Assembly (NCBI GenBank): GCA_963402885.1
Contig: OY727103.1
Coordinates: forward strand, 436,501 to 500,500
Source of the DNA: Antedon bifida
Taxonomy: Eukaryota; Echinodermata; Crinoidea; Comatulida; Antedonidae
DNA length: 64,000 nt
Reading direction: 5' to 3'
Positions 13,901 to 55,500 of this stretch are shown in pieces. A model generated the notes under the pieces. The model ran no database searches. It had not been told where the DNA came from and saw only the letters and a program-made list of their open reading frames with translations. A program made the translations under genes and the position numbers. Positions within the stretch are counted from its first letter, which is position 1; every line of letters begins with the position of its first letter.

Positions 13901-16900
13901 TGTCGTTGGATTCTGGGTTTAATCCACTTTTGATGAGAAAGTGTAAATAATGGATTGGATGAGGGATAGTGCTTTTTGGTCAGATAGCGAAAGCAGCCAT
14001 TTTGAATTGGAATCTGATTTTGATATTAAGGTAATGTTAGGAGATAAGAATGTCTTATACACCTAATAACTGTACAATACGCCTACACATTCATATTGCT
14101 TACATGATGTGGTGTACAGTTAATAATATACAGTTTAATTTGCTTCTATGGGTTAGATCATTCAATGAACCAGTACTACATTTTATACAAGATATCCCGG
14201 AAAAATATTTCAAAACTTATTAGGTAATTCCCTGACATGAATAGTGTAGCGTCTTGGTTAATTGTAGGCCTATAGTAATTAATCAAAATATTAAACATAT
14301 TTTATTAATTAATAAACCAAATTTATGTTTATTTAGGTTAAAACCCTTTTGAGAAATTAATGTACAGCAATGCTCTGATAATATCTTTAACATTGATGTC
14401 CAGTATAATCTATCAATTATATGAATGTTACATTAGATGTTGTTATCACATGTTTTCAAATCATTCTTGAAAATAAATGGTTAATTTTTGTTTTGGTATT
14501 TATATCCAATCAATAAGCGAATAAAATTACATTCAATTAAAATATATTCAACCAAGTTTTCAATTTATGAGTTTCAAATTCTTATGAGGAATATGGTGAC
14601 ACATAAAGGCATACCATGGGTGCAATAATTTATATAATTGCTACCATTTACATAATTTATTAAATGATAATGCTTCGTTGAGCCAGCGTTATCGAACCAA
14701 CGTCAATAATCTCTGTAATCTATTTGGTTTCGTCGAGGGATAATAATTTCTCTACTACTCATGTTTAGAATTATGATTATTCATTTTTCAGTTCGTTATT
14801 AACAATTAAAAAGAAAGTTCATTTAATTTAAATTTTAAAACATTATATTTTAGTGTGATTTTCCATTTTGTATTAGTTTTTGTTGTATGGAATATTTATT
14901 CTAAAATAAAGTGATCAATTCAATTCAATATTGAGATCTTCAATTCTTCAATGGGAGTATTTATATAATTTGTTCAGTCCTTGAAGACATATTGTGTTGT
15001 TAATTCAGTTAATATTCCAGCGGTTGTTATTGACATTTTTAATTAAATAGAGAGAAACTTAAATTTAATATTATGTCGTTTTTATTTATTTTTTTAAAGT
15101 AGAAAGTAAACATTTTCTGAGTTACAAAAGGTTTTTTTTTAAATGTGAATTTGAAATCACAAACTATGTAGATTTGTATTTAATAAAATTAGTTGTTTAT
15201 TTTATGGTAATGTACCCAAGATCATTAAAGGCTATACTACACGTTTAAAAATCTGAATAAATGTCAAAATTAATTTATTTCGAATCAAGTACAAAGACTT
15301 AACGTCAAAAGTCATCGTCGTTTAATCAAAGATGAGTCAGATATGATAATTCTACCGATTTATAATGTTTAAATATGTACCTCATCTCAATACAAATTTA
15401 TTCATTATAATAGTATAGTATATTGTTTGAAGGTTTGCATGGCGAGCAGTTCTTTTCAGAACTAATATATGGGGTGTACCGCAAAATTTATGTGATCAAC
15501 AATAGTAGAGTTAGTACACAAGCCAGTGATAGTGTTGCTGCTTACTATACCCTTTTCACACCAAAACTCCGGAGTGATTTCCGGAGTTTTGCTTTTGGTG
15601 TGAAAGGGGTACTATACAAGAAGCCTTGCCACAACTATCTCTTATATTATTGGGGTTTTTTTTCTATGCCAAAATGATTTTGTTTCTTTGTCTTTACTTT
15701 ATTATGTTTCTTATGATATTTCCAATTACTGTACCACTTTGAAAATCAGTGCACTTGTACTGAAAGTGCCTGCAGAATAAAAAAAGAATAAATAAATAAA
15801 CCTACACTAATATAACACACACTATAATTAATATAAATAATAAATGAAAACTTGTGTGGCGCCGGTGTCCCCCGCCCATGTGAAGCTCATAGCGCTTTGT
15901 GCATTAACAAAATGCTAGTAGTACATAAGCAAATAGCGACGTCTTCATGTTGGACTATGACAAGATCTTTTGCTCAACGTTAGACTTTAAAAACACAACA
16001 CATTGATAAATCACATGATGTGTTTATTATAATACTAAGACATCTTGTAAGCTGTCAATATCAGGGATCATGTCACCTAATCCTATAGAAAACTGTTACT
16101 GGTTTATATCACTGAGATATAACAGGATTATAAATAGACAATACAGAATTTAAGGTGGAGTTTAGGAGTGGTGTTACTAATTTGTCCTTAATAACTAAGT
16201 GCTATTAATCTTTTAATAGATTTTTCATTTTCAGGTCAGGAAAAACAAAAGGGAGCTATGACTCAGTGAGTCAGTAATTCCTTCATACAATATAAAAATA
16301 TATAAATTTGAATGATTATGAAAATCACTAGTAAAGCTTCATTCAATCATAAACAACATTATCAATATTTTCGTTATCTAAATTCATGTTGTGTGTTTCA
16401 AATACTGTATTTTATCCACAAATTTTGTGGGGAAAATATATACGGAAAATACCATGTTATACACAGTATATATTTATTTTGCAGAAACATACCCTTACTC
16501 TATCCCTACCATGTCACCTTTACCTTACTTAAGCCAGAGAATAATGACTTAATAATAGCTTCTAACCTCATTCCTCCACGCTTAACTTGAATGTCATGAC
16601 TTTTATTTGTTTTTTCAGCAGACACAAGTAAATGATTTAACCACGTTTACAAGCGACTACCAGAAAGTAGCCTATGAAGTATTAACCTCTGAGAGGACGT
16701 ATATTGAAAAATTACATCTGCTGGATCAGGTAGGAATCTCAGTAACATCATCAGAATAATCATCATTATCATTGAAATCATCTGATTTACTGTATATTTA
16801 GAAATTACATCTGCTGGATCAGGTAGGAATCTCAGTAACATCATCATTAGAATAATCGTCATTATCATTGAAATCATCTGATTTACTGTATATTTAGAAA

Positions 16901-19900
16901 TTACATCTGCTGGATCAGGTAGGAATCTCAGTAACATCATCATTAGAATAATCGTCATTATCATTGAAATCATCTGATTTACTGTATATTTAGAAATTAC
17001 ATCTGCTGGATCAGGTAGGAATCTCAGTAACATAATCATTTAAATAATCATCATTATCATTGAAATCATCTGATTTATATTTAAAAATTATGAAGGATGA
17101 AAGTTTATAAATTGTATATGACATTAAAATTGCTTATTCCAAAAGAAAATATTTTAAAAATTCATATATTTTTTCAGGGAGACAATATAATTTTAAATCT
17201 TTAAGAGAGACCAGTCTTTTTGACTGATTGGGCCACCCTGGTTAAATATTGTGAATAAATAAATAAAGATTTTAAGTATGGTATGGTAGATTTGACAATA
17301 CATTTAAATTGATTCATATTTAAGTATGACAGATTAAATATGACAGATTAAACATGTTGAACTATTAAACTATAAACATCTCACTTGCTGCTTTCATTCA
17401 TAATTCCAATGCTCAATTCCATTGGATGAGTAAAGGAAAACACTGTAATATCCTGTTAATACAGCCACTCCTTATTTCAATCATAAAAGTACAATATGAG
17501 TGTCACAATTAAGGACGTTTTGATATAAATTGGGTTGAGTTTCTCTCTTTACATTGACTTTTATTAAATATGGTATAATATATATATTTATCATATTTAT
17601 ATTTACTTAATTTGGTTATCTTTCTATTTCTATACTACTTATAAACTAAAAGAAATGTGTTTTCCTTAAAGGCCAGGTGCGGGCACAAAATTTCTATTGA
17701 TCATACATTCCAATAATTATCGATCTATAGTTTCCCCTATGTTTCATAATTTTTGGGATTTTATTTGTGTTACACGAGCTTGTTGAAAATAAGCACTTTC
17801 TTATCAGTGGGGGGATAGTTCAAATTACACAGTAAAATCTATATTCTTTTGTACACAAATTTTGTAAATAGAGAGGCATTTTAAATAGCTATGAAAAATA
17901 AACGGTGTGGTAAAAAATGTTATCAGATGACTAAATATAGGTAATATAACTTGAATTTTACATTTCTGGTATTTTTATTCAACTTCTGATTTTTATTTTC
18001 ATGCTATAGCAAAAATTATCCACCATATATCTACCATCTTTTTTCACCTTCTAGGGAGTCACCAGACATGTTATTACATTAGGTTAAACTACCTAACTAC
18101 TGAAAAATAGTCTTCCTGGTTTTTATGGCAGAATTTTGCCAAATTTTGTATTTGACCATATTAAGGGAAATTCATGTTCTTTCATCTTGATTTCTGTTAC
18201 AAATATTTGATTTATGTACAATTAACCAGATATTATATTTAAAATTCATGCCTGTACCTGAGCTTTAAGCTCTGTCTACACTATCAAACTTTATGTGACA
18301 AAAAATGTGATGTGCCCAAATATGGACATGATGATGTCATATCACTACCATATTTGTGTATATCACTACCATATTTGTGTATATCACTACCATATTTGTG
18401 TATATCACTACCATATTTGTGTATATCACTACCATATTTGGGCACATCACATTCTTTTTGTCAAACTAGTTTGATAGTGTAGATGCTTAGATTAAACAAG
18501 AGAGCTGGTCTGGTATTTTACAACCATCTAATTTATCTTTGTTCATTTTTAGGTGTTTCGTCACAGAATTGAAAATGAAAATCGTGAAAAACAGTTCTTC
18601 CCGCCAGAAGTAATAAACCTGGTGTTTTCAAATATCTCCAGTATTTACAGCTTCCACAAAGAATTCCTACTGCCTCAGTTAGAAGAGAGAATGATACAAT
18701 GGTAACCAAAACAAATTAACAACTTTTTGACATTTTTATTCAAAAGAAATAAATGCATGGTCTAGTCTAGGTTGTAAACAACAATCCTGCTTAATAGTGG
18801 TACAAGAGAATAAGAATATATAAGAGCTGGAATCTAATTACAGACAAAATTCGCAGGAATAATGACAACATAGAAAAGACAATAAACAAACTTGGAGCTA
18901 GTCTAGACATGGTTGAATTTACTACAAATAAAGAAATCATTAAAACCTGTAAAAAACTTGATGAAAACTTTTGTGTTTTGACAGGGAAAGTAAACCAAGA
19001 ATCGGGGATATTATGAAATTACTGGCGCCGTTCTTACGAATGTATTCCGATTATGTCGGAAACTTTGAAAACGCAGTGAAACAACTACAAACTTGGACGT
19101 CAAAGTCGTCCAAGTTTGCAACACTTATACATGAAATTCAGGTAAGAAGGTTTTTGAGCTACATCTGGCTACAACTTATTATGGCATGTTATAGTATTGC
19201 ACATTGTTGTATAAATTTTTTTATTTATTTCATAAAACCTCCAGAAGGAGAAGCAGTCAATAAATCAATATAAACATATTTAAAATGGCAATAATAATCT
19301 GTAAATGCTATCTAAATCGTTATTAAATAATAACACACTGTCACAAATACCGTGGTCAATACGAAAATTATTTTTAAAATGCGACTTAACTTTCTTACAA
19401 TAATAAACATCAAAAATAGACTTAATAAGTGAAAAATTGTCGGTGCAAACAGAATTAATAACACAAGAAATTAGTAGGCCTATCATTAAGGTAGATTTAA
19501 GTAGAACTCATCAAGGGTACTAAATTACAATACAGTCCTCAAATTAATTTCAGGAGCACTGTACATGCATCCTTCATTTATTATCAATCACCAATAATCA
19601 TTTTTTTACCAACTTAATTGGCAATCATTCTGATTCTGATAAGAAGAGGACAGTTATACAAGGAAGTTTCAACATTAATTGTTCCAAAAACTTTTTTTTA
19701 TAAAAAGAAAAAGAGAATCGGTTTAGTTTTCGAGAGAATAATATGCGTCAGTTTTGATTAATACTTGTGTACTTTGATTTAGTTTCATAGAAAATTATGT
19801 GAATCATATATTTTTTCTGGCCAGTTGTCTGACGCAGATGACACGCAAATGTGCAATGACTTAAGTCCTTTCTTAACCCAAATAACATTATAACAGGCGT

Positions 19901-22900
19901 TGATGATTGACTGATTGACATATCCGAATGTGTCATTAACCCATTAGTGGTTGCAAGCATGTGCTTAATAAATTGATTTGGCAGCCGATATTTAATAAAA
20001 ACTGAAAGCTATTAAGAAGAAGAACTGCAGAGACATGAAGACTGGCTTAATCAGCAGATAATGTTTAATGTTGCAACCTTGAAATTAAGCTTCGTGCAGA
20101 CATGGTCAACAGAAACAGAATTTGCGGCCAATTGGCGATTGATCAGTCGTCAGTACCTATCTCTGATAACTCATGCAACAGATAACCCATATACAGCTAC
20201 TAACCAACATTTGTTTTTTTATCTTCTTTTCTCGCCCATGCGTCTAAAGAATGTGACTAATAACTTGTTTTGAGATCGCAAGCTTATTTAAATGAGTGAG
20301 TGGCCGAGCAGTTAAGACAGTGGAACCGTAATTACGTAGCCATAACATCAGCATGGTTCTGGTGGTAGAACAAGTCTTCTCGTATAATGACTAAAAACCG
20401 TAGGTCCAATGTGTACACATCTAGCTCATGTGCACTAGGACCTAGAACCTAGTACATTTTTCGAGACGAGTAGGGGGTTACCCCGGTGTACTAGTACATC
20501 ACAGCCACTGATCATAACTGGGCCCTTTGGGAGACCAATCTTTGACTGAAGAGGTCGCCTAGTATAAATAAAATATTTCAATAAATATAATACAATGTAT
20601 AATGTTGCATGCAGGGCCCCAATGAAAACCAGTTTTCAGTTTGGGCTACCCTCGGTAAAGAAATATAATAAAAATAATTATTCGTAATATTTCTTGTTTT
20701 GTCTTAAACAGGCGGATCCATTATGTCATCACCTGTCTCTACAACATCATATGTTAGAACCTGTACAGAGAGTACCACGATACCAATTGTTATTAAGAGG
20801 TCAGTGCCCTCAGTTATGTAATAATAATAATAATATCCTGGATTTATATAGCGAACTAAAGTTGTGAAACCTCTGAGCGCTGAACATTATTACCCCAGTC
20901 ATTTTTTGGATCAAACACGTATGGAAACATACTCCCATAATGCAGCTAGTAATCAGCGCAAAGTTTTGTCTTGATCTAACCGGTACCCATTTATACACCT
21001 GGGTGGAGAGAGGCATATTAGGCCTATGAATAAAAGGAGTAGACCCCACTGAAAGCTGCACAAGGTTGACATGAAACAGTTTAAGAAAGTTTAACTGGTT
21101 TAAAGAAAATATAGATTTTTAAATTTTTTTTTCAGATTACCTTAAAAAACTTCCAGAAGACTCAGAGGATAAAACAGATGCCTGTAGTAAGTGCTAGTTA
21201 TATACACTACAATTAATCAACATTATCATAAATATTAAAATGACTGATACTTAATGGTAAAAGTACACTACTTTAAGTACTTGCTTTAAATAACAATAAT
21301 GTAACCTTATACACTACAATGATTAGACCTCTAACATTATCCTAACTATTAATTAATGTTGAGTGGTAAAAGTACACTTCTTTAATGTAACCTTACATTG
21401 TCTTTTCTTAAAACAGAAGCGCTTGACTTAATCTCAGCAGCAGCCCAACATTCCAATGATTTCATGAAAAGCATGGTAAGTAATACCCTTAAGTATCCTA
21501 GTAGTTTTGACTTAAGTCAATTGTTTCCTCATAAACTAATTTATAACTGTCTACATTTTTTTTTTCAGGATAAATTTCAGAAACTTTTAAAGATTAATGA
21601 AATGATTGACGGTGAGGACATCATTGACCCCACAAGAGAGTTTTTGAAAGAAGGAAAGATCACAAAGATAGCAGCAAGAAGTGGTGACCAACAGGAACGA
21701 TATCTGTTCCTGGTAAGTGGTACTTAAGTTTGCTAGTTCGCACCATCTCTACAAACCCACAAACACGTAACAGTGAGCAAAAAGCTTGCAATGAAAACCA
21801 TACCATGGAATTAAACATGGCCTCTTGAACCATGGAGCTACAATCCATCTCACAACGAGTGACGCCGCGATGTAAACAACTAACAAATCTTTGTTGAGGT
21901 GTATAGTGCGCATGCCCAAATACCGAATGACGCACTTGTTGGAAAAGATGATTGTTCAAAGGGATTTATTTTGTTGTTACTCCTTCTAATTATAGCTCTA
22001 TGCTTGAACTAACCAATTGGTTTTAATTTCAGTTTAATGATGTCCTGTTCTGTACTCAGAATCGAAAACTAATCACAGGAGGAACGTCGAGTTACAAAGT
22101 CAAGGCTAGGTTAGACATCGATGGAATGAAGGTATTTATTTATTTATTTTATTTCAACAATATTTTATGAGGGTGGTCCATCCAGAAGCTGATCATTAGG
22201 GACCCTCACAGAAATACATCATGACAAGACATAAACATGTAACAATAAAAATTAAATTAAAATAAATATAATTTATAAAGATAAAACAAAGCACAAACAA
22301 TTTAAAATCAAAAATTAAATAAATTAAATTAGGTATGGTATCGCCCATGGGTAGCTTCTCCTTTTCATGTTTCCCTTTCTTCCGCCTAAAGTCTAAAAAA
22401 AAGTTATAAAATCTGTTTAGGATGGTCTGTTATCCTCATAAAATATTAAACAATAATAATAAGTTAATGACTTAACTTTTTTGATCCACCGACCCTCATT
22501 AGAGACAGGATATACTCCAGTTTCAATTTATAATTTCTTTTTCAAAATGCCATTATTATGGGAAAAATAAAATGTTGTATTTTTAATATGTTATACTTTT
22601 CTTCAAAAACATAAACATTATAAAACAAACTGTACAGTATAAGTATATACATATAATATATAGTACTGTATAACTTTAATAATTTAACTGTACAATATTT
22701 CTAGATTTTTGATGGAGAAAACAGCAAATATGACCATACATTTAGACTTGAGAGCAAACAAAAGACGTTGGAGTTACAAGGGAGTTCAGATGATGAGAAA
22801 GAATCATGGATGAGGGTAAGATCTCATTATACAACCTGTCATTTGGGGACCCCCTATTCAGGGAATACCCCTATTCAGGGGACAACAGTACTATTGTTTC

Positions 22901-25900
22901 AACACTATCAGACCAACACTTATTCAAAGGACACGCCTAAGTGACTCTTTATTGTGTCCTGAAGGTGTCCCCTTAATACTGTAATTAAAACTTGACCTAT
23001 TAAATAAATTTGCTTCTCATCACCAATGCGAGACAAGTTTTAACTTCTAGAAGGGATCCATGATAATAATGACTACCAATTACTGCTTTATCTATGTTCA
23101 CTTTAATATCTTTTTTCTATTTTGTATATGTTCATTCATTATTATCTGAATAAATGTTGCCAATAGCTTAACTGTATTTACAACGTGATAATATTTAATT
23201 TCAGGCAATACTCGGTGCAATACAAGAATTGTTAAGAAGAAAAGAGACATTTAAAGCGTTATCAGTCGATAAAGATGAAGTAAGTTTGATTTATTTCTTC
23301 AACAATGTAGAATTGTTCAAAATCTATTTGTTTTACAATTTTAAAATACATGATGATAATAATTTTGGTTGTGTTTATAGAGCACTTTATTTGATGTGTT
23401 TAAAAAATAATTAGTAAGAAAAAAAAAAAAGTTTTTTATTATTTTTTTTTTTTTTTCTTTAAGACGGACAGTCGGCCAGTAACTGAATCGGGTGAGGATA
23501 GTTTTCATCTTGGTTTGCGTGCGCCTCGATGGATACGTGATGACGAAGCAACTATGTGTATGCGGTGTGCCCTTGATTTTGGGCTGACACGCCGTAGACA
23601 CCATTGTAGAGCATGTGGAGTGGTAAGTCACTTACTTAGTTTTATACCAATGGAGTTAGATTGGCAGATACAGAAGGACCCATGATAACGGGACACCTTT
23701 GAAACCACAACCACAAGTGTAAAGAGGTGTCCCCTGAATAGGAGTTGGCCCTAGTGTTAAAACATATATTACCCATTGTTTAATTAACCAGAAATGCCCT
23801 CTTAATAGAGGTGTACCTTGAATAAGTGTGTCCCAAAGAGGGGTCCTACAGTAGATAGTTTGTTTTAGTGGTATTCAAATGTCTATTTAAAGTATTATTA
23901 TTTAAAATGTTTTTATTTTATAAGGTGGTATGCTCAAGATGTTCAAATCAGCAAGCTGAGCTCGCATATGACAGCAACAAACCTGGTCGAGTTTGTCGCA
24001 AATGCTATGTCAAGTTGAAAGGTATCGATGCTGAAAGTCCTTTGTCACCGGAAGAAAAGAAAGTAAGTATCTACCAAATGTCAATAAGTTCATTGTAACT
24101 GGGTGATCAAAAACATATCGCTGGATAAAAATGTGTGTGAACACAAAATGAACCACTGGACTGTCTAAAGCTCTGTTCACACTATCAAACTTTATGTGAC
24201 AAACAAATGTGATGTGCCCATATATGGACAAGATGATGTCATATCACTACCATACTTGTGCATATCACTACCATATTTTGGCACATCGAACATTTATTGT
24301 CAAACTAGTTTGATAGTGAAGACAGAGCTTAATGATAGTGAAACTATTCTGGATATAAGATAACACAACAGGGACTTGACTACAAAAAAGAGATTCCAGA
24401 TAAAACAACTAGTTTATCTAAATAAATGGCCCTAATACTATTAATATTTTCTTTTAGTTATCTTTTACGGAGGAAGACACTCTGTTTGGGTCTACAATGT
24501 TTATACAACAAAAAAGTGGATGGAACAAACTGTGGGCTGTAGCGACTGCTGAGGATCTACACTTGGTTCGCGCACCCAAGGTAAGTTCGCGCACTCAAGG
24601 TAAATTTTACAATAGAAAAAATAATTCTACCAATATTAAGATAAGTGACAACCGGTACTTTAAAAAAAAATTTATTCTGGTTTGTTAAAACAAAGACATG
24701 GCAGTACAAAACTGAATTGCGTCCAGTAACAATAACATAAAAAATATACCAAAAACAAGCAAAATTACACAAACATCCAATATAAAAATATATATATATA
24801 CAAAATGCATTCAAAAAAATAAAGAATATACAATTACAAATTTACAAACTGCGAGCAAAATTATTAATCATCCATGATCCAACAGAATATAATATTCTTG
24901 GAGTAATAAATGAATTGCTATTTTCACTAGGAGGGCACTCAGAGAGCGCAAACCTCCACCTAGGCATATGAAAGTGTAATCACATGTTCCCATAAAGCTA
25001 TGAAACCATCCTTTAAAATCATATGACAATCGGGCAATGACTTTTTGAGGAATATAGAAAGAAACACACACACCCGATTGACCTCGTAACCTCTCGCCAT
25101 TCCGGCGGATGTAATGATTGAAAATTACAAGTAAACTATGCGTGAATATGTTCGGTGCCCATTTACTCTCCTTAACATACAATTTATTTTCGTCAATTAA
25201 TTTATATTGTTATTTTCACAGGATGTCCGTGCCGTTGTATCTATTCCGTTATCATTTTATAATATATCTGACATCGATAGCGGTGACGTCATTGACAGAC
25301 CATTTGCATTTAAATTTGTTGAGAAATCTGGTAAAAATATTTACTACTTATCGACAGAATGTAAAGAACTTAAAAAGAAGTAAGTAGATATGTTTCCTTT
25401 TATTTTTCTTGAAAAAATTATCACAAATTTTTATACAAAATATCAAAAAGTGTGTTACTAATGCTTGGTCCAACTAGAGACACAAGGGATCTAACCAATC
25501 ACAAGCGATGGATTATTATGACTGTAACTTGTCATTGGTAAACTCGCTTGAGTTGTGTCTACGTTCATGCATTGCGTCATAGTGGGAACAAAGCTTTACG
25601 ACAATCTGCTGTAAAACATCTATGATTTTTAAACAATAATGAAAAATTATTCTCTTTTTAGGTGGATGGCGTATTTACAGGAGGGTATCCCAGATGACAG
25701 TGGCAGAGCATGTACGTTATAACACAAGCCTAACTTATTTCCTTCTAGGACCAAAGCAGGATTTTGGAATTAAGGTTATTAATAACTACAACTGAGATAC
25801 ACACAATGTAATCCATTGTAATTATATACACTATATATGTTTTTAAGTACAAACAATTAAACATGCAATTGATTTTAGCTTAGACTTATTTTCAGTAAGT

Positions 25901-28100: not shown

Positions 28101-28533
28101 ATTTTGACATTGCGAAAGGATTTGTTAGCCTTATTAAGCTAATTCACACTGCGTCTTGTTGTTAAATAAAACATCATATAAAGAATTAAAAGGCTTGCTG
28201 TCTTCCGTTCCGTGAAACAGAACAAGTGTGATTGAATATAGCTTTATCAAGTCATTTTAATTTGTTGTGTTTTTTTTTAACGAATGGTAGCTCCTTTTTT
28301 TTAAACAAGCAACTAACTTATTTATTACAATAAAATCCTAGTTCTTTCATTTTTATGTTCTTTTTTTTTAATAATAATTTTTTATTAATTATTTAAATAA
28401 TTATAATTAACTGTTTGTATACCTTGTTGTTTGTAAAGTGTGTATTATGTAAATAAAAAATTACACTGAAATTGATTGTAGTTTCAATTGTATTGTACTC
28501 AGATAAGTATTTTTACATAGACATGTATTGTTC

Positions 28534-28676
28534 AAGCTCTGTCTACACTATCAAAGTTTATGTGACAAAAATGTTATGTGCCCATATATGGACATGATGA
28601 TGTCATATCACTACCATATTTGGGCACATCACTCTTTTTTTGTCAAACTAGTTTGACAGTGTAGACAGAGAGCTTT
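28534..28676. mobile_element. Palindromic MITE-1
   Basis: A well preserved copy about 143 bp long; both arms pair almost over the whole length, with gacatgatgatgtca at the centre. Located downstream of the FGD-like gene. Confidence 0.9.
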
Positions 28677-29780: not shown

Positions 29781-31513
29781 TTACAGAGTACAAACTACGC
29801 AAGTTAGCTCAAGATTCGCATATGGTTTACAAAATACTCCGCCACCTGAAGAACATCCTGCTTCAACGACGAACAATGTACTTGCATCCTTTAGTGGAGC
29901 TGCCAGTTTTGTACCAGGTAAAACAGATGGGTCACCATCCACGCATATGTACTCTGTACGCTTAAGCTCGTCTCGATTAGCCATCAAATATCCATCATAT
30001 TCTTTAGTCCAACCGTTTGGACAATCTGTAACCGCTGGCATCATAAGTGTGACACTTCGTGCTGCTTGACAAACGGCACAAGGAACGTCATGGTTGTGAT
30101 TGTTTGCTAGTGGAGTGATCTTTTGTCCATACCTATATTCTGTAGGGAAAATTGACCCCCTTAACATTTGATGATCTGGTACCGTAAAGTTCAATTGTCG
30201 TTTGTCAGTCACACAGAGATAGTTTGACCCACTTCCATTTGCACCATCAGGTGCGCCAAGTGTCCTACCTAAGATGTAAAGATTACAATAATCCTTAGTT
30301 TAAAGTTTTCAATTTGGTTTACTTTAAAATGTATTATTATTAAACGGGAACATGGAAGCAACAAAAATAGGTCTAAAAACAAAGAGCAAAATAAAAATGA
30401 TCAATCATAAAATGGCGAAGGAAATAAAACAAAAGGAAAATCATGGACGGTTAAACAACTGCGTATAATTCAATAAAACTCTTTACCTTTGTAGACCAAT
30501 TCCGCAGTATTAGGACAGTCTTCACGCCCCCAACGAGTGAATAGAGTAATTTTAGTAGACTCTGTGGAACAATAACATGTACTGAATACTAAATACACAA
30601 TTTATCATTTAATTTTTATTTAGGGCTCTGAATGATATAAAGCCTTTGCTTGCCTCTGTGCTGTACCACAAAGCAAAACATGCTAACCCAAACTAATAAT
30701 CTCATGTTATGATATTATAAGAATAATTCAAGACTAAACAAAGCAGCAATAGTTACTTTGTTTGAAAAACCCTGCTATAAAGCTTACCTTTAAGTTTTGA
30801 ATTTAACATGTTTTCCTAAATTAAAAGAAAAAAAAATTATAATAAAATAATATTCGAATGAAAGTTCATGTGCTGGTAAAAATATTTGAAAATGTAACGT
30901 GTCTAAAATTCAAGGTATGTTGAATTATGTGCTGTAAATTCGTTTCAAAAACATTTTATAATAAAATATTAATTATGCAAATTAATTAGCATTCAATTTT
31001 ACACTGCTTTACATTGGCCATTCAGTAAACTTTTAACAATCATCATACATTTTTCATCATCATTACACTATGCTGTTTTTAGCTTAGTAGCTTTAATTCA
31101 AATTACCGTTTGGAATCGAGTGAGGAAACTTGTTATAATGTCTGTATGCGCAAAATGAATTAACATAATTAAACTTTTAAATCGAAAGTTCTCTATCTAT
31201 TATTGTCTCAGCTGATCACACCTATACTTACATCAATTCTTGTAAGATGCTCGATGAAGGATTTCTGTGACTTGATAGTCATGATACTGAAAACTGCTAC
31301 TACAATACATACAAGAATGACACATCCAACGGCAATACCAAGTTTAACATGGTGTTGCTTCGGTGGAACCGGCAAAAGTCTACCATGATGTTTACTGTGC
31401 GTCACTTGTTTTCCAGAAGAAACGTCAATATTACTATCTTGCCACTCGGCCATCCCTTTCTCTGTACTCTTAGTCGGTAGACTGTTCATATACACATTAT
31501 CCACCTCTGCCAT
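29781..31513 (-). CDS. Type II membrane protein with short-chain-collagen-C4-like Cys-rich ectodomain, copy A
   Basis: Four exons on the minus strand: 31513-31232, 30815-30788, 30561-30487, 30268-29781 (873 nt, 290 residues); phases 0,1,1 close correctly. Residues 1-57 are polar and should be cytosolic, about 58-80 form one membrane segment (LGIAVGCVILVCIVV), and no signal peptide precedes it. The ectodomain has the pattern TRWGR..CP..AELVYKG, GSGSNYLCV, PCAVCQA, CPNGWTKEYDGYLM, YICVD and a final CVVCTL. This cysteine and tryptophan arrangement is that of proteins annotated in cnidarians, sponges and other invertebrates as short-chain collagen C4-like. There are no Gly-X-Y repeats here, so it is not a collagen itself. 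Function is unknown; an extracellular recognition or matrix role is only inference. Confidence 0.85.
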
Positions 31514-33485: not shown

Positions 33486-36307
33486 TTACAGAGTACAAAC
33501 CACGCAAGATAGCTCAAGACTATCTTCATACACCGAACAATTCAATCCACCACCAGATTGATTGCATTTTCCCTCAACGAGGAACAACGTACTGGCTTTA
33601 TTATTAATTTGACGGGTGCTATTACTATCAAAAACAGACTGGTTTTCATCAACGCATATGAACTCTGTACGCTTACGGTCGTCCCGAGAGGTCATTAAAT
33701 ATCCATCATATTCTTTAGTCCAACCGTTTGGACATTCTGTAACAGCTGGAATCATAAGTGTGACACTTCGTGGGGCTTGACAAACGGCACGTGATTGTCC
33801 TTCAGTGGAGCAAACTTCATATCTCCGTACCTGTATTCTGTACCATAAACTGACCCTCTTTGCTCTTGAGATAATCCTACCGTAAACCTGTATTGTGGTT
33901 TGTCAGTCAGACAGAGATAGTTTGCGCCACTCCCAGTTGAACCATATGGTGGCCCTGCTGTCCTACCTAGGATTGTTAAAAGTTTACCACCAATTAGGTT
34001 TATTTTTTAAATGTAGTAAATGGGATCATAGATAATGACAATAACAAATAAACAACAACAATACCGAAATTATAAATAAGGTTTAATTTAATTTATTAAA
34101 GATGTATTGTCCCCCAAAAACATGAAAAATGAAGATTAACTAAATCAGACTTTGAATAGGTTATTTAGTAGTTTTTTTTTTTCTTCCATGAAAAAAACCC
34201 CCCAAAAAAACAAATAAATGGTCAAATTCAACCAAAAACCTATTGGCTCGCAGCCAATTTGACTATATTTTGCTTTGAATTACAGTTTTTCAGGTAAATA
34301 CATTTTTTTTCGATTCAATTTTTTTTTAAAGTGGATAACTATTATGTGACAATAAAATGGCATATTCAACAAGAAAAATGTAAACTAGATTTGAACTCGT
34401 CACTACGGACGAGTTAGGACTACTAGGTCCCTAGATAAGTTATTTACCACAATTTAGCGCATAGTTAAATTACACACACAGTAAAATAGCCAATCAGTAC
34501 TTAGTCTTATTTGGCCTGCTACATTATAGGAATAGGTAGGAAATAAATGATTTGGGCTATACCAAATGCCGTTACAGTATATACAGTATAAACAGTATAA
34601 TCTTTATACATACTATATACAGTTCAGAATAGATGAAAATAAGTGACCAAAGTTATTGACGCTTTTGAACATGATGACGTCATCACAATTTTTAAAATAG
34701 TAAATCATGCGAAGGATAATTGATGGACCTAGACAATATACAAAATTGGAGGGAAATGGAATACGGATAAGTGGAGATGTGTTCTATTAAATGTGATGAG
34801 CTATGACGAATAAGACAAAAATCCAACGTTTTATATTCGAGTGGCCATACAATGACTTCTCAATGTGTCCGGTTAGCCATATTAATGCATGATTCGATAA
34901 ATACTCCTCATCAACTTCCAGAATATGTAAATTAAAACACGTCACTGACAATAACAAAGGGTTATCCGCCAAGTGCGGATAACCAAAAATTATTTTTTCA
35001 GGGGGGGGGCAATACATCTTTAAAACTTGTTTAAAGAGGGTAACCCTAAACAGCATATGCTGACAATCAAGGGGCCTTCATAGAAACATATATTAAGACA
35101 ATCATATATGAAAAAAAAACAAAGAACTAAACAATTTACCTTTGTAGATCAATTCCGCAGTATTAGGACAGTCAGTACGCCCCCAACGAGTGAATAGAGT
35201 AATTTTAGTAGACTCAGGAACTGTTGAACAAAGTAACAAAAACATGTAAATGTTGTACTGAATACTAAATACACAATATTATGATTTAACTTTTATTGAG
35301 GGCTTTGAATGATATAAAGCCTGTGCTTGCCTGTGCTGTACCACAAAGCAAAACATCTGAACATGCTAACCAAAACTTTCCCTATTGTATAAACTAATTT
35401 AAGACTAAACAAACCAGATATAGGCTATTTTACTTCATTTTAAAGGTTCAGGGACGATTCGGCCCTGAGACGATTCGGCCCGGGACTATTCGGCCCACTT
35501 TTGGTGGGACGATTCGGCCCACTTTTGGGCCGAAACATCCCACTTTGTGGGCCGAAACGTCTCACTTTAGACCAAATTCATATTCATTTTTTTTTTATTT
35601 ATCAAGTTTTTAAAGGTGTTTAACAATCCGTATTTTATTGATATTGACAAAGTTGATATAATATATATAATAAATTACTAAAAAAACGTAATTTTATATT
35701 CAATTTATTACTTCGAAAACCTTGTTTATTTCGTGCATTCGCCAAGCGGCCAACAGGTAACTGGTAACTGGTTTACATCGTTCGCGTGACTAAAAAATGA
35801 TTATTTTCGACAATGTTTTCAAAATGTTTGCTTTATTGCATCTTTATCCCTAGTAGTGCTACCCCATAGTCTCTCTGAAAATAAAGTTTGGGGAAAAAAG
35901 CTTATTTTATGCTTATAAATGCTTATCAAAGCCGATAAATGTAAGTGTGCCGAATCGTCTCAGGGCCGAATCGTCCCGGGCCGAATAGTCCCGGGCCGAA
36001 TCGTCCCAGGGCCGAATCGTCCCGGGCCGAATCGTCTCAGGGCCGAATCGTCCCGTTACCATTTTAAAAACCCTACTGTTTTAAGAGTATAAAAAAACCT
36101 ACCTTTCTGTGACTGGATAGTCATGATACTGAAAACTGCTACTACAATACATACAAGAATGACACATGCAACAGCAATACCAAGTGAAACATGGTGTTGC
36201 TTCTGTACAACCACCACTTGTTTTCCAGGAGGAACTGCATCAACATCACTATCTTGGCACTTGCCTATTCCTTTCTCTGTATTCTCCTCACCGGCTATTA
36301 CTTCCAT
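33486..36307 (-). pseudogene. Decayed copy B of the Cys-rich membrane-protein gene
   Basis: Recognisable exons on the minus strand: 36307-36103, 35220-35140, 33966-33486. Compared with A and C it has three lesions. The ancestral start region keeps no ATG; the frame upstream runs to TAA, so the first usable Met is at 36307. The small second exon is gone and the first exon ends directly in CAGAAAG|GTAGG. A deletion of 16 nt relative to copy A, near 33790, shifts the frame just before the PCAVC motif and leads to a stop 12 codons later. The rest (AVCQAPRSV through CVVCTL, stop at 33486) survives in the shifted frame. The membrane segment and splice sites look intact, so a truncated protein is still possible. 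Confidence 0.8.
35445..36059. mobile_element. Foldback element with gattcggccc subterminal repeats and 9-bp target duplication
   Basis: Both ends consist of reiterated 13-15 bp units containing acgattcggccc, in inverted orientation. The element is flanked by CATTTTAAA on both sides (35444 and before; 36060-36068). A 9-bp duplication with long reiterated ends fits Mutator-like non-autonomous elements. It carries no gene and sits in the first intron of copy B, about 43 bp from the splice donor. Confidence 0.8.
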
Positions 36308-37182: not shown

Positions 37183-39079
37183 ATGGCAGAGATGGATAAT
37201 AATATGTATATGGAAGTAATGAGCAATGAGGGGACCCACAGTAAAGAGAAAGGAATAGGCGAGTGCCAAGATAGTGATGTTGATGCAGTTCCTCCTGGAA
37301 AACAAGTGGTGGTTGTACAGCAGAAGCAACACCATGTTTCACTTGGTATTGCTGTTGGATGTGTCATTCTTGTGTGTATTGTAGTAGCAGTTTTCAGTAT
37401 CATGACTATCCAGTCACATAACGTAAGTAGATGCAATTATGACAAACATTACAATACCTGTAGTAGTATTGACAGCATGTTGTTGACAAAAACAGATTAC
37501 CTATGTAAAGTACATAATTGGCTAGATATAATAGAAATAACTTAAACCGAATTTCAACATCTTGGTAATGAATATTTTTTCGGCTTTAATTTAGGAAAAC
37601 ATATGTTCACAAACTAAAGGTAGGCTTTTTTTCTACCCTTTAAACACAATATTAAATAAGGAAAATAAAGGTTCGGCCCCTAGAATATGACAGCTTTTAA
37701 ACAGTTTTAATGAACATTTTGTTTTCCTCTTCAATAATATGAATGTGAGTGTCCGAGCGATTAAGACAGTGGAACCGTAACTCAGGCACAACATCAGAAA
37801 GGGTTTGAGGCTCACTCAGTCCATGGTTCTGGTGGTAGTCTTCTCGGATAAGAACTATAAACCGTAGGTCCAGTGTACACACATTGCTTGTGTGCACTTT
37901 AAAAAACCTAGTACATCTTTCGAGACGAGTAGGGGGTAAACCCCAGTGTACTAGTTCACACTCAGCTACTGTGTCGTGGACAGAAGAGAGAGCTGCGCAA
38001 GTGGCTGCAGGATATGACAAGACCCTTAGGGGAGAAGTATCTTATTGAACATCTAGTCCACAGCGCCTTGAGCACTTTAGTGGATATGTGCGCTTTACAA
38101 ATCTTTACAAATTATTAATTTACTTGTTGGGTATAATAGAAGGCTGCTTAGAAGGCTGCTATGAATGCACCTAAAAAAAAGTGGAAGACCAGGCTCATAT
38201 GCTGGGTTGTAAATGGGACTAAAATTTGCTTTGCAAATTGTCTCAGCTTAGGTGGAAAAACTGAATAATTGGTTGATTTGAAATCAATTAAAAAAAATGT
38301 GGGGATCAAAACCCAGAATCGCAAATAATCTTGTATTAAAATTTAATTTTTTAAAATTTACAGTTTATAGTTTATACACACGTTGGGGGCGCACGGATTG
38401 TCCAAGTACTGCTGAATTAATATACAAAGGTATTTAAATAAAATGTTTTATAAAGTAATGAAGATGATATGTCTTTGCAGAACATACTGTAAATGATGAA
38501 CTTACCTATCAATGTTTTGAGGTAGTAATACTATAGCCCAATATTTAGGGCATATTTATATTTCTAGGTGTGATGTCTGGTGCACCACATAGTGATACTG
38601 GGAGTGGTACAAACTATCTTTGTTTACCTCACCAACCACGATACAATTTCACAATGGCGGGCTATCAATCCACGAGAGGATCAATCACTGCTGTGGAATT
38701 CAGGGAATCAACAAAAAAGTTTGATCCAACAAAAGATCTCCATGGTTTAAACTTTCCTTGCGCCGTTTGTCAAGCCCCACGAAGTGTCTCGTTACTTTTA
38801 CCAGCAGAAACCGAATGCCCAATTGGTTGGATTACAGAGTTTAGGGGATACATGATGGCTTCTAGAAAGGACGAAAAACGTGCAGAATTCGTCTGCGTAG
38901 ATGAAAGTCCATCTTACATAAAGGGTTCAGATAAACCTGATGGTGATGCGGACTGGGAAATGGCAAGCAGGCTATTTCCTGTTGAGGGCAGATGCAATGC
39001 AGAAGCTGCAGTTGGAGGGTTGCCTTGTCCACCCTACGTTGATGGTTACGAGTTGACTTGTGCAATTTGTACACAGTAA
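37183..39079 (+). CDS. Type II membrane protein with short-chain-collagen-C4-like Cys-rich ectodomain, copy C
   Basis: Four exons: 37183-37422, 37595-37619, 38364-38429, 38568-39079 (843 nt, 280 residues), with the same intron phases as copy A. The cytosolic head is residues 1-53, the membrane segment about 54-76 (LGIAVGCVILVCIVV, nearly identical to A and B). The ectodomain keeps YTRWGRTDCP, GSGTNYLCL, PCAVCQAPRSV, CPIGWITEFRGYMM, FVCVD and ends in CAICTQ. It is the most diverged ectodomain of the three, while the cytosolic/membrane exon is the most conserved region. It is inverted relative to A and B, so B and C are divergently arranged. Role unknown; same family reservations as copy A. Confidence 0.87.
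37737..38115 (+). mobile_element. tRNA-derived SINE-A, near full length
   Basis: A tRNA-Ser/Leu-like head (gagtgtccgagcgattaag, B-box-like gggtttgaggctc) is followed by a body with tttcgagacgagtaggggg and a 3' tail tgcgctttacaaatc. It lies in the second intron of gene C, which is expanded accordingly. Confidence 0.8.
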
Positions 39080-46240: not shown

Positions 46241-46408
46241 AAAGCTCTGTCTACACTATCAAATAAGTTTGACAAAAGAGTGTGATGTGCCCAAATATGG
46301 TAGTGATATGGTCAAATATAGTATTGATGACATTATCATGTCCATATATGGGCACATCACATTTGTTTTGTCACATAGTCAAGTTTGATAGTGTAGACAG
46401 AGCTTTAA
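46241..46408. mobile_element. Palindromic MITE-1, opposite orientation
   Basis: Arms aaagctctgtctacactatc and gatagtgtagacagagcttt with one extra internal tatggtagtgatatgg-type unit. Confidence 0.9.
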
Positions 46409-49547: not shown

Positions 49548-52500
49548 TTAACTTTTTGATCCTACAATGTGTCTTAAGTGCGCGTTCAACTCTCGCGATA
49601 AACACTTATTTACTTGAGATTTTTTTGGTGCATTTTTGTCATGAACAGGAGGGTACAACCCAACTTTTAAGCCATTTTTAGTTCTTTGGACATCATGTTT
49701 AGTTTTTCTTGTTGGAAACGGATAAAATTCTGGAGACTTTTGGACAAAAGGGTCGCCGTCTAAACTATCACCACTATGACTGCTACAGTTTGAGGAGGAT
49801 CTTGGACGCATGCGATGCGACTTATGCGCCTGAGGTGTGTCAACGAGTTGAGGCTGGAAACCCATTGTAGAAACATTAAAAGTACTCCCATCTGGCGTTA
49901 CAGGTGTAGTAGGACGATCAAGACTACTTGTCCGTGATAATGGCGGTTTACTTGTCACTTTTGCTTCATACAAACTACTGGCAGTTGCCAGGTTACCAGC
50001 AGTTGCCAGGTTACTGGGAGTTGTCTGGTTACCGGCAGTTTCCAGGTTACAGGCAGTTGCCAGGTTACGATGTTTTGATTCTATGTTACAGTTGTTCATA
50101 TTGTGATTTGTATCTAACTTAGTTTTTGATTTTTCATTAGAATTATTCAAACTAGTGTCTTTCTCAATAGCAGACATTGTATTTTGCTGTTCAGAATTCA
50201 TTGCGCTTTCTTCGCATTTACTTTCACTATCTATTTTCTTGGAATCTTCTACACAATTATTTTCTGTTTCTTTATCATTCACTTTCTCTTCGTCCTTGTT
50301 TTCATACTTTTCTTTCTGTTTCATCTCTTCGTTTTCATCTCCATTTTCTTCAGATGTTTTAATCTCATTCTTATTTTCCACGGACACACCATCAGGACTG
50401 TTTTCGTCTTCATTTTTCTCACCACTTTCAAACCCAAAATCAATCAACCACTCTGTGACCTGGTCACAAACAGACTCCTCTTCTGTGCTGCTCCTCAGAA
50501 CCTCTCCAATAATCTCCTCTGCTTCTGCCATCATCGTCTCCGTGCTCAGGTCAGAGTTCATGGACGTGTTACAATCTAACGACGATCCTGACGTGGTGAT
50601 TGACAACCTATCGTCATCATTCAAAGAGGTCAGTGTACTGCCGCTACCGAAATCTTGACCCGAGGACTGCTGTGAAAGACTGCCAGTACTTCTGCCTCTG
50701 CCTAGTCTTCTATCCAGACCCTTGAATGTTTTTACCTTTCTTGCTGGATGATGTAGGCTACTCATTACTTCATCTATATCAACAACGGGAGATATATGTG
50801 GTCCAACTGTAACTTTGATGTTTTTAGCTCCCAGACCTATAGAAAAAAAAAAGTGTAAAAGGATATCCAAAATAAATTTGTTCGTGTTATATATTAATTA
50901 ACCATTCATTTAAAAATAAATGTAAATGGGAATAACCTGTGACTTGCAGCCTACTGGGCTGAACTGCACACAGGTGTGGACAACACATACCACACCTTTC
51001 CTAAGGGTCTCTTCATGTCGAGTGCTGCCACTAAACGGCGCCCGTTCGTCTGTCCACAACGATCGTGGCTGAATGGACCAGTACACCGGGGTAACCCCTA
51101 CTCTTCCGAAAGATGTACTGGGTTCTTTAAAGTGCACACGAGCCAGATGTGCACACTGGACCTCCAGTTTTAAGTCCTTATCCGAGAAGACTTCTTACCT
51201 TGATTATCAACAAACAGGTGATTCATTGCGGCTGGAGACTCAATCTTAGCCGTCAGGCCTCTCTTGGAACCAAAATTTCTACCTGTTAACATATAATGTA
51301 TTGATATAATTTTACTCTCCAGAAAATGATATTCATAAATACAAGTATCTTAGGCCTGGGATGTAAATAGGCCATCAATAACTAGGCTCTGGGCTATTAA
51401 CAGTCGATATACACTTTATATAGAGTTGATATAGATGACAGTTTAAGTGGAACTTAGGGCTAAGTAGACAACCAGGAACAAACTAAGGTGAAGATTTGTG
51501 CATTGGTGGTATCAAATTATGCCATATTAAGATCCCATCAAACTTGAATAAAAAGACGTTATAAAACAAAGCATTTCGTTTCAGAGATGTTAACAGCTGT
51601 ATTTGTTTTATGTTATACTGTAACCAGGGAGGAGAGGAGTTATTATTTATGTATCTAATTAAAACTCCATGGTTATAATAGTAAAACTAATATAATAAGC
51701 ACTGTATACTATTTACGCTTTTAGGAGTCTACAACAACTTTGATTGTCAAATAACTAATTTACACACATGACAAAATAATTAACAAAACAATATATTCAG
51801 TATACATATGCTAAAACATATAAAACTATGTACTGTATAGTGAACATACTGTACAGTATACAAATAACTAAACTAATAACTAATTATTACAAAGAATTTG
51901 TATTTTAGTTCTAGTTTCAATTATATATGTTTCAATATAATAATCTTTAGAGATATATTGTCCCCCTAAAATTGTCTGTCAGACAATGGTTTTTGGTTAA
52001 CATTAACTGTTTCTTTTGTATTTTTATAGGTCAAATAATTATTTTGTTGTTTTTTTTTTTACATAAGTGAATAACATTATTAAAACTGCAAAAATGACCT
52101 ATTAAAAGTCTGATTGTATTAATCTTCATTTTTCATGTTTTTGGGGAAAATACATCTTTATTATAACACTAATTACTACCTGTAACTATATGCCTTCAAT
52201 GAAACACTCCATTTTATTCAGAAGAAAAATTAAGTTTAAATTCTTTAAATGGAGGGAAGCGTGTAAACAAATATTACTAAACTATAAAATAACACAACAA
52301 CAACAATAACACAACAACAACAATAACACAACAACAATAACACAACAACAATAACACAACAACAACAATAACACAACAACAACAATAACACAACAACAAC
52401 AATAACACAACAACAACAATAACACAAATTAGGAAAATCAAATATAATTTAAAAAACAAATTATTAAAAACCAGCAAAATCTAAATGAATTAAAACTAGT

Positions 52501-55500
52501 ACCACTTACAAACCTCTCTTTTATATTTAGTTATTTACAAAGATTCTGTATCCCTTTATAAAACGGTTCTCAAGAATGAGACTCCACATTTATTGAGTTT
52601 CTTGGAACCCTACAGCAGAACTATATTTACCACACCTGTGGCTGTATTCATCAATCACACATAAGTCAGATATTTAGGAGAATTAGTTAGTGTTTTACTT
52701 AGCCCAAGTGTGATTGGTAAATACGTCCACTGTTCTTTAGGACCCCAAATGTGTCATATAACCTTGTAAAATATAACTTATAATAAATGAGAGATTTGAT
52801 TACACCATTATATAAATATTATACTCAACTATAATAAGTGAGAACATGCACAGTTGACTGGTTATACCATATAACATGATGATCCACTAAAAGCTATCAA
52901 ATCAATAAGCTTAATTGGTGGAGTATTGTAATGAACTCAACTGGAAAAATCACAATTGGTTGTCATTCAGACAAAAAAAATTAAAAGCGTTCAGACTAAA
53001 TTTTGTTTTTCTGACCGAGATTGAACTCCCATTAAAAAAAAAATTATAATTGATGATTTGTCTTCTACAAATAAACTTTATTAAATAAATATTTTTTGAA
53101 ATTTTATAAGCAAAATGTGTTTCTTCCATTCCAAACATAAATTTTAGTGGATCTAGTTTAGTAACCAGCCTACTTTTAAAACGCAACCTACCGTCCGATT
53201 TGTCAACCACAGTAACGTGGCGTTCTTCTGACGCATCAGCTACATAAATGATTAAAAGCACCACCAAAAGAAAGCAAAGTGAAGAAAAAAGAAAAATGTG
53301 ACCATAACCAGCCCAAAAATGATGGAATGATCAATAAAAGGTGATAAGAAAGGTGATGAGAAAGTGATGCAATATTAGAACACACAAATGGTTGATAAAA
53401 TGTTGTTGTTGACTGATAACAAAGAAAAGATTAAACACATCACATAATGATAATTAAAGATGATAATTTTGATAGTGTTGTGATTATAATTTATTTACAA
53501 TACATACAGTACAGTGATAATTTTGATACTATGCAGTTTGGTATCTGCTATAATCAATAGACCAAAATAAAAGTATATTTTTGGTAGTTGATGTGAAAAT
53601 AAACTAAATAGTGACATATCAAACAATTTACACAGATACTTTCTACTAAAGATATATTTGAATATCTTAATTTGTTTGGATTTTCACAAAAGTTTTCCCA
53701 CAAAAATATAAATGGTAGGACTAAATAAAACATGCAAAATTTAAAAATATAATTATAATATAATAATGACCTTGAAAAAACTTAAATTCATTAAAATAAG
53801 GTCAATTTGTGACTAGACCTATAAACGGTAGTTAATCTGACCCTATCACAAAAAAAAGAAAAGGGTAAAAATTTAGTTTTCAATCATTAAGTGGTGGAAT
53901 GTGTACCGACACCAAAGAAGTACCACCCACTCAAATCTGGTATAACTCTTAAGCACTGTCTACACTATCAAACTTTATGTGACAAAAAAATGTGATGTGC
54001 CCATATATGGACATGATGATGTCATATCACCACCATATTTGGACATATCACTACCATATTTGGGCACCACACTTTTTTCGTCAAACTAGGTTGATAGTGT
54101 AGACAAAGCTTTAAAAAGCTAATCTAATATTCTCAAAATGAAAAATGTATAATTAAAAGGAAAAAGTAGGTAAGTGGTTAAGTGTTGGCCTCACCTCGTT
54201 GCTGTGTATTGAGCCTAGAGCCAGGGCCATAGATAACATGTGCTTGTTGTTGTCTCCTTTGTATACGTCCATACTGTCTTTTCAATGCTTGTATGTCAAC
54301 GGTCATTCTCTCCAACATGGCTACTGAGAACTGGTTAGTCTGGTACTCGCTGTTGGCGCCAAACGCACCAGGACTCGCGCGAGTTATATCGTTGCTGTCG
54401 GCTGACTGGTTTACATTTTCACCTTAAAAATATTAGAAATTAAAGGATTCTTTGTCATCACTTTACTTAAATTGTTGAAACAACATTTCATTATCCTTTA
54501 CTTTAATTCATTTTCTAAGTTCTAACTAAGTTCTTGGTTCACTTAAACTTAAAAATAAAGTTTAGTCTCAAATCAGGAAGTATAATTTAACATTGATTCT
54601 GTTGATTATGATACAAGGATATACAAAATACACTTAATGTTCAATAGTATATGTCTATTGAACATCATGTGACCCACAATCCTCCAATCAAATGACAACT
54701 TACCCTGCTCAATGCTATACTTGGGAGGTGTAATGGGCACTGGAAAGATACTTAAAAATACTATTGCAGTTCAATAGTATTTGTCTATTGAACATCATGT
54801 GATCCACAATCCTCCAATCAAATGACAACTTACCCTGCTCAATGCTATACTTGGGAGGTGTAATGGGTACTGGAAAGATACTGGTAAAACATGTTATATT
54901 AATGTCCTCCTCGTCCTTGTCAGCCTCTTCATCACTGTGTGACGTAGGCTTGCCTTTCTCTTTCTCATCTTCTGATGACTTAGCTAGCGAACCCACAGGT
55001 GAGAAAGGCGTAATGCTGAACATGTACTTCTCTCGTATCTCACTCAGGTGGGGAAAAGGAAATGGAGCTATTGAATATATTGTCTACAAAAAAAAAGAAA
55101 ATATGTCAAAATTAATTTGTATGTATATGTCGGTGGTTGTTCTACCTAGTGCTATCATGGAGGAAAACAATTTTTTTTTGTTCTATGGTTCTATTCAGCA
55201 CACCCAATAGCTTAAACTCACTAATTCTAAGATAAGAAATAAACTTGTATGGGGCTTAGGTGATGGCGCTGTTTTTGGTACGAGACAAATCCTGAGGATT
55301 CTGGGATTGTTAAGCATACCAAGCAACAGTTGCACTAAGTGTTGTTCTTAAACTTACTTGGATGAGATCATCAGCATTGATGTAGTGTTCATGTAACATC
55401 TTTTGTGACATCATCCCCATTGTTGTGTAGAATTCATCTGCTGTACTGTTCTCTTCAATTTGTCTACAAATAATTGAAAAATATAATAATAATAAAAAGA

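Follow-up and report, generated by a model that had tools for sequence, protein, structure and literature searches.

The window analyzed here, a 64,000-nucleotide stretch of contig OY727103.1 from the crinoid Antedon bifida (assembly GCA_963402885.1), carries on its plus strand a gene for which a model of 14 exons was assembled, spanning 16622 to 25379 and giving a product of 539 amino acids. The model rests on homology and splice consensus, and no exon was modelled upstream of 16622. In Pfam searches the product matches RhoGEF (PF00621, 5.2e-48), PH (PF00169, 2.5e-16) and FYVE (PF01363, 1.6e-20), and among its solved relatives FGD5 scores best (3mpx, E 1.6e-53, residues 16–432); these domain figures and the FGD5 match come from the final 14-exon model. 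A RhoGEF (DH) domain, then PH, then FYVE within one protein is the arrangement that defines the FGD family, and the gene is an FGD-family Rho-GEF. The family has a second, C-terminal PH domain, for which there was no Pfam match at E 0.001, the model stopping at 25379 inside that region. The end of the first DH exon, here called the parent exon, lies within a tandem array, and the features needed for the argument are as follows.

16622–16729, plus strand: parent exon, the first DH exon (RhoGEF PF00621), with an alternative start at 16619
16699–17077, plus strand: tandem array of four copies, with a unit of 91–96 bp that crosses the exon end and the donor
16700–16715, plus strand: exonic side of a 16-bp homeology, TATATTGAAAAATTAC, the left endpoint of the duplicated block
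16709–16729, plus strand: parental 21 nt, encoding KLHLLDQ, the real exon end
16730–16735, plus strand: donor GTAGGA of the parent exon (2.24 bits), present again at 16823–16828, 16919–16924 and 17015–17020
16793–16801, plus strand: junction TATATTTAG with a new acceptor-like AG (−0.13 bits), present again at 16889–16897 and 16985–16993
16802–16822, plus strand: mini-exon candidate 1, encoding KLHLLDQ, phase 0 at both ends
16898–16918, plus strand: mini-exon candidate 2, placed by 21-mer position, frame and AG..GT scan
16994–17014, plus strand: mini-exon candidate 3, placed by 21-mer position, frame and AG..GT scan
17076–17091, plus strand: intronic side of the homeology, TATATTTAAAAATTAT, the right endpoint, where the last copy ends
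18553–18701, plus strand: next DH exon, acceptor TTTTTAG/GTG, the presumed partner of the donor at 16729
18985–25379, plus strand: remaining 12 modelled exons, covering the rest of DH, PH, FYVE and the start of the C-terminal part

Several other features were recorded. The parent exon has a tandem CAGCAG acceptor (16616–16621), whose two starts, 16619 and 16622, lie three bases apart and score 6.56 and 6.68 bits, respectively. The intron that holds the array also holds a palindromic MITE-like element at 18275–18483, which contains 4.9 copies of a 21-bp unit and has related pieces at, for example, 24168–24332, 28531–28665, 46250–46408, 53949–54103 and 58459–58567. Elsewhere there are a high-identity tandem duplication at 54639–54882 (130 bp, 1.9 copies, 97% matches) and an 18-bp repeat of 5.2 copies at 49976–50068, within a minus-strand ORF (49548–50897, 449 aa) that has no Pfam match. 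A RabGAP-TBC exon lies at 56915–57247 on the minus strand. CAVCQAPRSV-like motifs occur in three ORFs, distributed over both strands (29781–30299; 33486–33902, minus; 38549–39079, plus), that look like a small local gene family; the first and third of these were scanned and have no Pfam match. An Rfam scan of the window returned two tRNAs only, both away from the array.

Tandem Repeats Finder describes the array with a period of 96, 4.0 copies, 96% matches and a score of 688, the highest among 37 partly overlapping rows for the window, where by the same program tandem repeats are common, so that an array per se is not unusual there. The 21-mer AAATTACATCTGCTGGATCAG starts at 16709, 16802, 16898 and 16994, at spacings of 93, 96 and 96; no reverse-complement copy of it occurs within the window, and the array unit has no match elsewhere in the window (blastn, E 1e-4). 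The 21 nt, which end in CAG/GTAGGA, are the same in all four copies, with GTAGGA directly 3' in each of the four and TATATTTAG directly 5' in each of the three extra copies. An earlier, sequence-only reading of this DNA had described three extra copies of the last 21 nt of the exon and its donor, nearly identical, repeated at a 96-bp period and bounded by TTTAG on the left and GTAGGA on the right. The three copies, their flanks and their near identity are confirmed by the 21-mer positions and by Tandem Repeats Finder; the period holds for the second and third spacings but not for the first (93), and the copied part of the exon is longer than the identical 21 nt, amounting to about 31 nt (16699–16729 against 16792–16822, 93.5% match), of which 21 nt stand 3' of the new AG.

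Compared with copies 2 and 3, which show no difference over 96 bp, copy 1 has one substitution and a 3-nt indel, and copy 4 has four substitutions 5' of the junction (columns 41, 48, 49 and 57) and further differences at the end of homology. No difference falls inside the 21 nt in any of the six copy pairs; with 5 or 6 random changes over 96 positions the chance of this is 0.29 or 0.23, so the unchanged 21 nt give no sign of selection on the mini-exons. A decayed fifth copy 3' of 17077 was considered and is not supported, as the best local alignment of the unit with 17070–17140 is the 15-bp TATATTTAAAAATTA alone, in a comparison by one alignment scheme that does not exclude a decayed copy. A minus-strand ORF of 130 aa (16647–17039) runs through the array, and it is open because the 96-bp repeat unit keeps a frame.

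The endpoints of the duplicated block can still be recognized. The exonic and intronic stretches at 16700–16715 and 17076–17091 match in 14 of 16 letters, while the best match at the other intron positions of the gene (n = 6564) is 12 of 16, at two positions, and the local alignment score of the pair is reached by 0 of 585 other intron windows. Homeologous stretches at both ends of the block are as expected if their misalignment made the first duplication, and together with the array they uphold the proposal that the copies originated by tandem duplication. The order and mechanism that we infer for the DNA events begin with the exon stretch misaligning with its near-copy in the intron (now 17076–17091), upon which misaligned recombination or replication slippage would have duplicated a segment of about 91 bp over the 3' end of the DH exon and its donor, and the duplicated unit would then have amplified to four. 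A mosaic junction, 5 extra nt and an A-to-G change would have made TTTAG by accident before the copied exon end, and the new TTTAG would have passed to every extra copy.

The junction of the copies, TATATTTAGAAATTAC, is intron-like at position 7 and exon-like at position 16 and has at position 9 a G found in neither parent; it is consistent with a mosaic in which exon and intron letters are combined with one new G. Measured to the letter aligned with the G of the new AG, copy 4 has 91 nt and copies 2 and 3 have 96, the latter carrying 5 extra nt (ACTGT or its shift; 5 gap columns) before TATATT. These may be junction filler that was gained, or may have been lost later from the last copy, or may be partly exon-derived. 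The copies' ACTGTATATT is one T away from the exon's ACGTATATT, so that this end of the junction may derive from the exon, a reading that may involve two substitutions and one inserted T. Under each reading of the junction the G of the AG is new, and since the parent exon reads TATATTGAA, with GAA at the AG site, the acceptor AG was not part of the copied sequence. An independent origin of the three acceptors is rejected, one junction being common to all extra copies; one event explains it, and the three "acceptors" are thus one coincidence rather than three, their shared AG most simply having a single origin followed by copying. Each of the three bounded mini-exons that had been postulated does have its AG and GT, but their acceptors go back to one copied event and are absent from the parent exon.

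Functional micro-exons are cassettes of 3–27 nt, and the candidates have 21 nt, a multiple of three, with no stop and with AG and GT at their borders. Whichever of the eight inclusion combinations is taken, the reading frame is preserved and free of stops, and the gain is 0, 7, 14 or 21 residues, so that the additions of 7, 14 or 21 residues through phase-0 symmetric exons that had been predicted are available on paper in full. The candidates lack stops because they were copied from coding sequence, and their phase on the right would come from the real donor, that on the left being probably a 1-in-3 outcome. If donors 2, 3 and 4 were used without the new acceptors, each would run into one shared stop, 9 codons beyond the end of the exon, and the other route that had been suggested, a choice among four donors with intron retained, is thereby nearly closed as a way to make protein.

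Within the RhoGEF match the copied exon end is reached after 21 residues; it belongs to the DH domain's first conserved stretch, which we take to be helix 1. No gap occurs at the insertion point in the five alignments shown of 51 matched sequences, which represent four distinct proteins (FARP2 appears twice) and for which the query was a provisional peptide in which a few residues from an intron preceded exon 3 and from which exon 5 onwards was missing; the site is thus in the DH domain and at a conserved position, as had been stated. The RhoGEF profile score is 167.2, 160.3 and 156.0 bits with 0, 1 and 2 inserts, a fall that would reflect a family without inserts there and is uninformative on folding. 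Seven residues correspond to about two helical turns, so helix 1 would retain its face with a shifted register.

The strength of the splice signals was compared within the gene. The scores were trained on one gene (14 acceptors, 13 to 14 donors, pooled tract positions), with real sites scored leave-one-out and decoys and copies scored with the full model, and they rank sites without predicting inclusion. At −0.13 bits the copies' acceptor is exceeded by 13 of the 14 real acceptors, and 20 of 334 decoy AGs from the 13 introns of the gene equal or exceed it; the remaining real acceptor, 22705, scores −5.35 bits, so use is compatible with a weak score. Among the decoy AGs of the array's intron the highest score, 6.04 bits, is that of 17176–17177; this AG belongs to TTCATATATTTTTTCAG (17161–17177), just 3' of the array, and in the gene's phase is followed by a stop after 8 codons. 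The copies' donor, at 2.24 bits, is matched by only 3 of 343 decoy GTs, and at least 7 of the gene's other donors score above it. The mini-introns would be 72, 75 and 75 nt long, and all 13 modelled introns are longer (93–1823 nt). Branch-like motifs, CTGAT (A at −17) and TTTAC (A at −13), precede the candidate acceptor. Exons of 21 nt usually need help to be recognized by the spliceosome.

A scan of the 13 modelled introns for symmetric open AG..GT pairs of 9–63 nt, which left out pairs near either intron end, gave 105 pairs, and none but the three array copies scores as high as they do at both acceptor and donor; looser cut-offs (−3 and 0 bits) add one candidate, 24641–24679. RNA structure steering the mini-exons in or out was also considered and rejected: the fold of 16690–17110 is less stable than its shuffles (z +2.66, with none of 100 shuffles less stable), and thus no structure was found that favors inclusion or skipping.

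On the observed array, homeology, frame and gene identity, we infer for the splicing outcome, with a probability of about two in three, that a recent unequal duplication has left the normal joining of 16729 to 18553 in place and that the mini-exons are skipped or rare. The spliceosome would most likely keep joining 16729 to 18553, the three extra copies leaving as intron, and the copied exon ends would be weak mini-exons, either skipped or giving low-level in-frame additions of 7 residues. The DNA duplication itself is clear and of an ordinary kind, and the features of the copies suggest that the mini-exons are mostly skipped. For this account of duplication and skipping as a whole count the homeology, the one shared junction, the weak acceptor, the short mini-introns and the falling RhoGEF score; against it count the standing of the copies as the sole symmetric open candidates at their own strength, the weaker real acceptor at 22705, the branch-like motifs and the other ways of reading the junction. 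Taken as a whole, the interpretation offered by the sequence-only reading stands as to the tandem duplication, the identity of the copies, the symmetric candidates and the DH site, but has to be tempered by an acceptor that is weak and was made once, and by very short mini-introns.

If the mini-exons were instead alternative exons, the gene would yield a set of GEFs in which the first DH helix is extended by zero to three KLHLLDQ heptads, each of about two turns, the number of heptads perhaps varying with array length between individuals. The candidates are symmetric and open, have intact donors, are the only ones of that strength in 13 introns, and agree in all four copies over the exonic 21 nt; yet the weak acceptor and very short mini-introns, the ungapped insertion point in the alignments described above and the RhoGEF score that drops with each insert all weigh against this reading, which we regard as unlikely. 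A functional role of the mini-exons is possible but not favored, and their regular use would be correspondingly unlikely. Somewhat more doubtful is a competition of the extra donors as 5' splice sites, in which products ending at 16822, 16918 or 17014 would retain intron, run into a stop and be degraded, so that array length would tune expression. Four identical 2.24-bit donors of a strength that few decoys attain, the stop 9 codons on in all three distal products and, by analogy, the repeat units that serve as donors in IFI6 (PMC4526556) are in line with such competition, but the first donor adjoins the real exon, and with 7 or more other donors of the gene scoring higher nothing marks the array donor as specially competitive. 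It is improbable that the array is a length-variable minisatellite in which each unit forms a complete 7-residue in-frame cassette exon in the catalytic helix bundle of a Rho-family GEF; if it were, repeat number and splicing would determine, in two-turn steps, how long helix 1 is, and with it exchange activity. An assembly error, or a collapsed or expanded copy number, might be read from the identity of copies 2 and 3, which makes the exact copy count uncertain, but is very improbable given the substitutions and 3-nt indel that separate copies 1, 2 and 4 and a junction sequence absent from the parent.

Tandem copies over an exon–intron boundary with an identifiable source place the array, by analogy, in a known kind, the duplicated splice junction, here with the donor side copied and the acceptor new and weak. 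Among related systems, IFI6 (6-16) contains a minisatellite that holds several splice donors (Turri et al. 1995, as cited in PMC4526556), two downstream repeat units of which work as donors (PMC4526556). A tandem repeat thus provides repeated splice donors in both cases; the IFI6 units give donors, however, whereas the units described here also carry an acceptor-like AG that makes separate mini-exons possible, and use is reported for IFI6, whereas the mini-exons here are candidates. An intron of a potato RdRp gene was gained via tandem duplication across an intron–exon boundary, and 106 RNA reads span its junction. There too a tandem duplication over an exon–intron boundary brought splice signals along, but it was the acceptor side that was copied, in contrast to the donor side, the new weak acceptor and the four copies seen here at the DNA level. 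In Drosophila, introns have been attributed to tandem duplication, with a premature stop in 18 of 18 individual intron sequences of the class (PMC2891723); new splice options likewise arise by duplication, although what was duplicated is coding sequence with a proto-splice site AG/GY, rather than exon plus intron (PMC2891723). Schistosome micro-exon genes, which encode secreted proteins, have 10 to 20 short exons and introns of 100 to almost 5000 bp (PMC10526429) and resemble the array in that many tiny exons follow one another, most with a length divisible by three, but they are not described in PMC10526429 as copies of a single unit at the end of an exon. The duplication in PMC7605655 exceeds 10 kb and is not comparable with the array. 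Among the titles listed for duplication-born micro-exons, repeat exonization and FGD splicing, the same arrangement was not recognized, which is no proof that it is unpublished.

The locus presents a splice junction caught soon after its tandem duplication, at a stage when both endpoints, and the way in which a candidate acceptor arose, can still be read from the sequence. If inclusion occurs in RNA, this FGD-family gene would be a clean case of repeat-borne mini-exons; if it does not, the gene would provide a measured example of good-looking exon copies being ignored.
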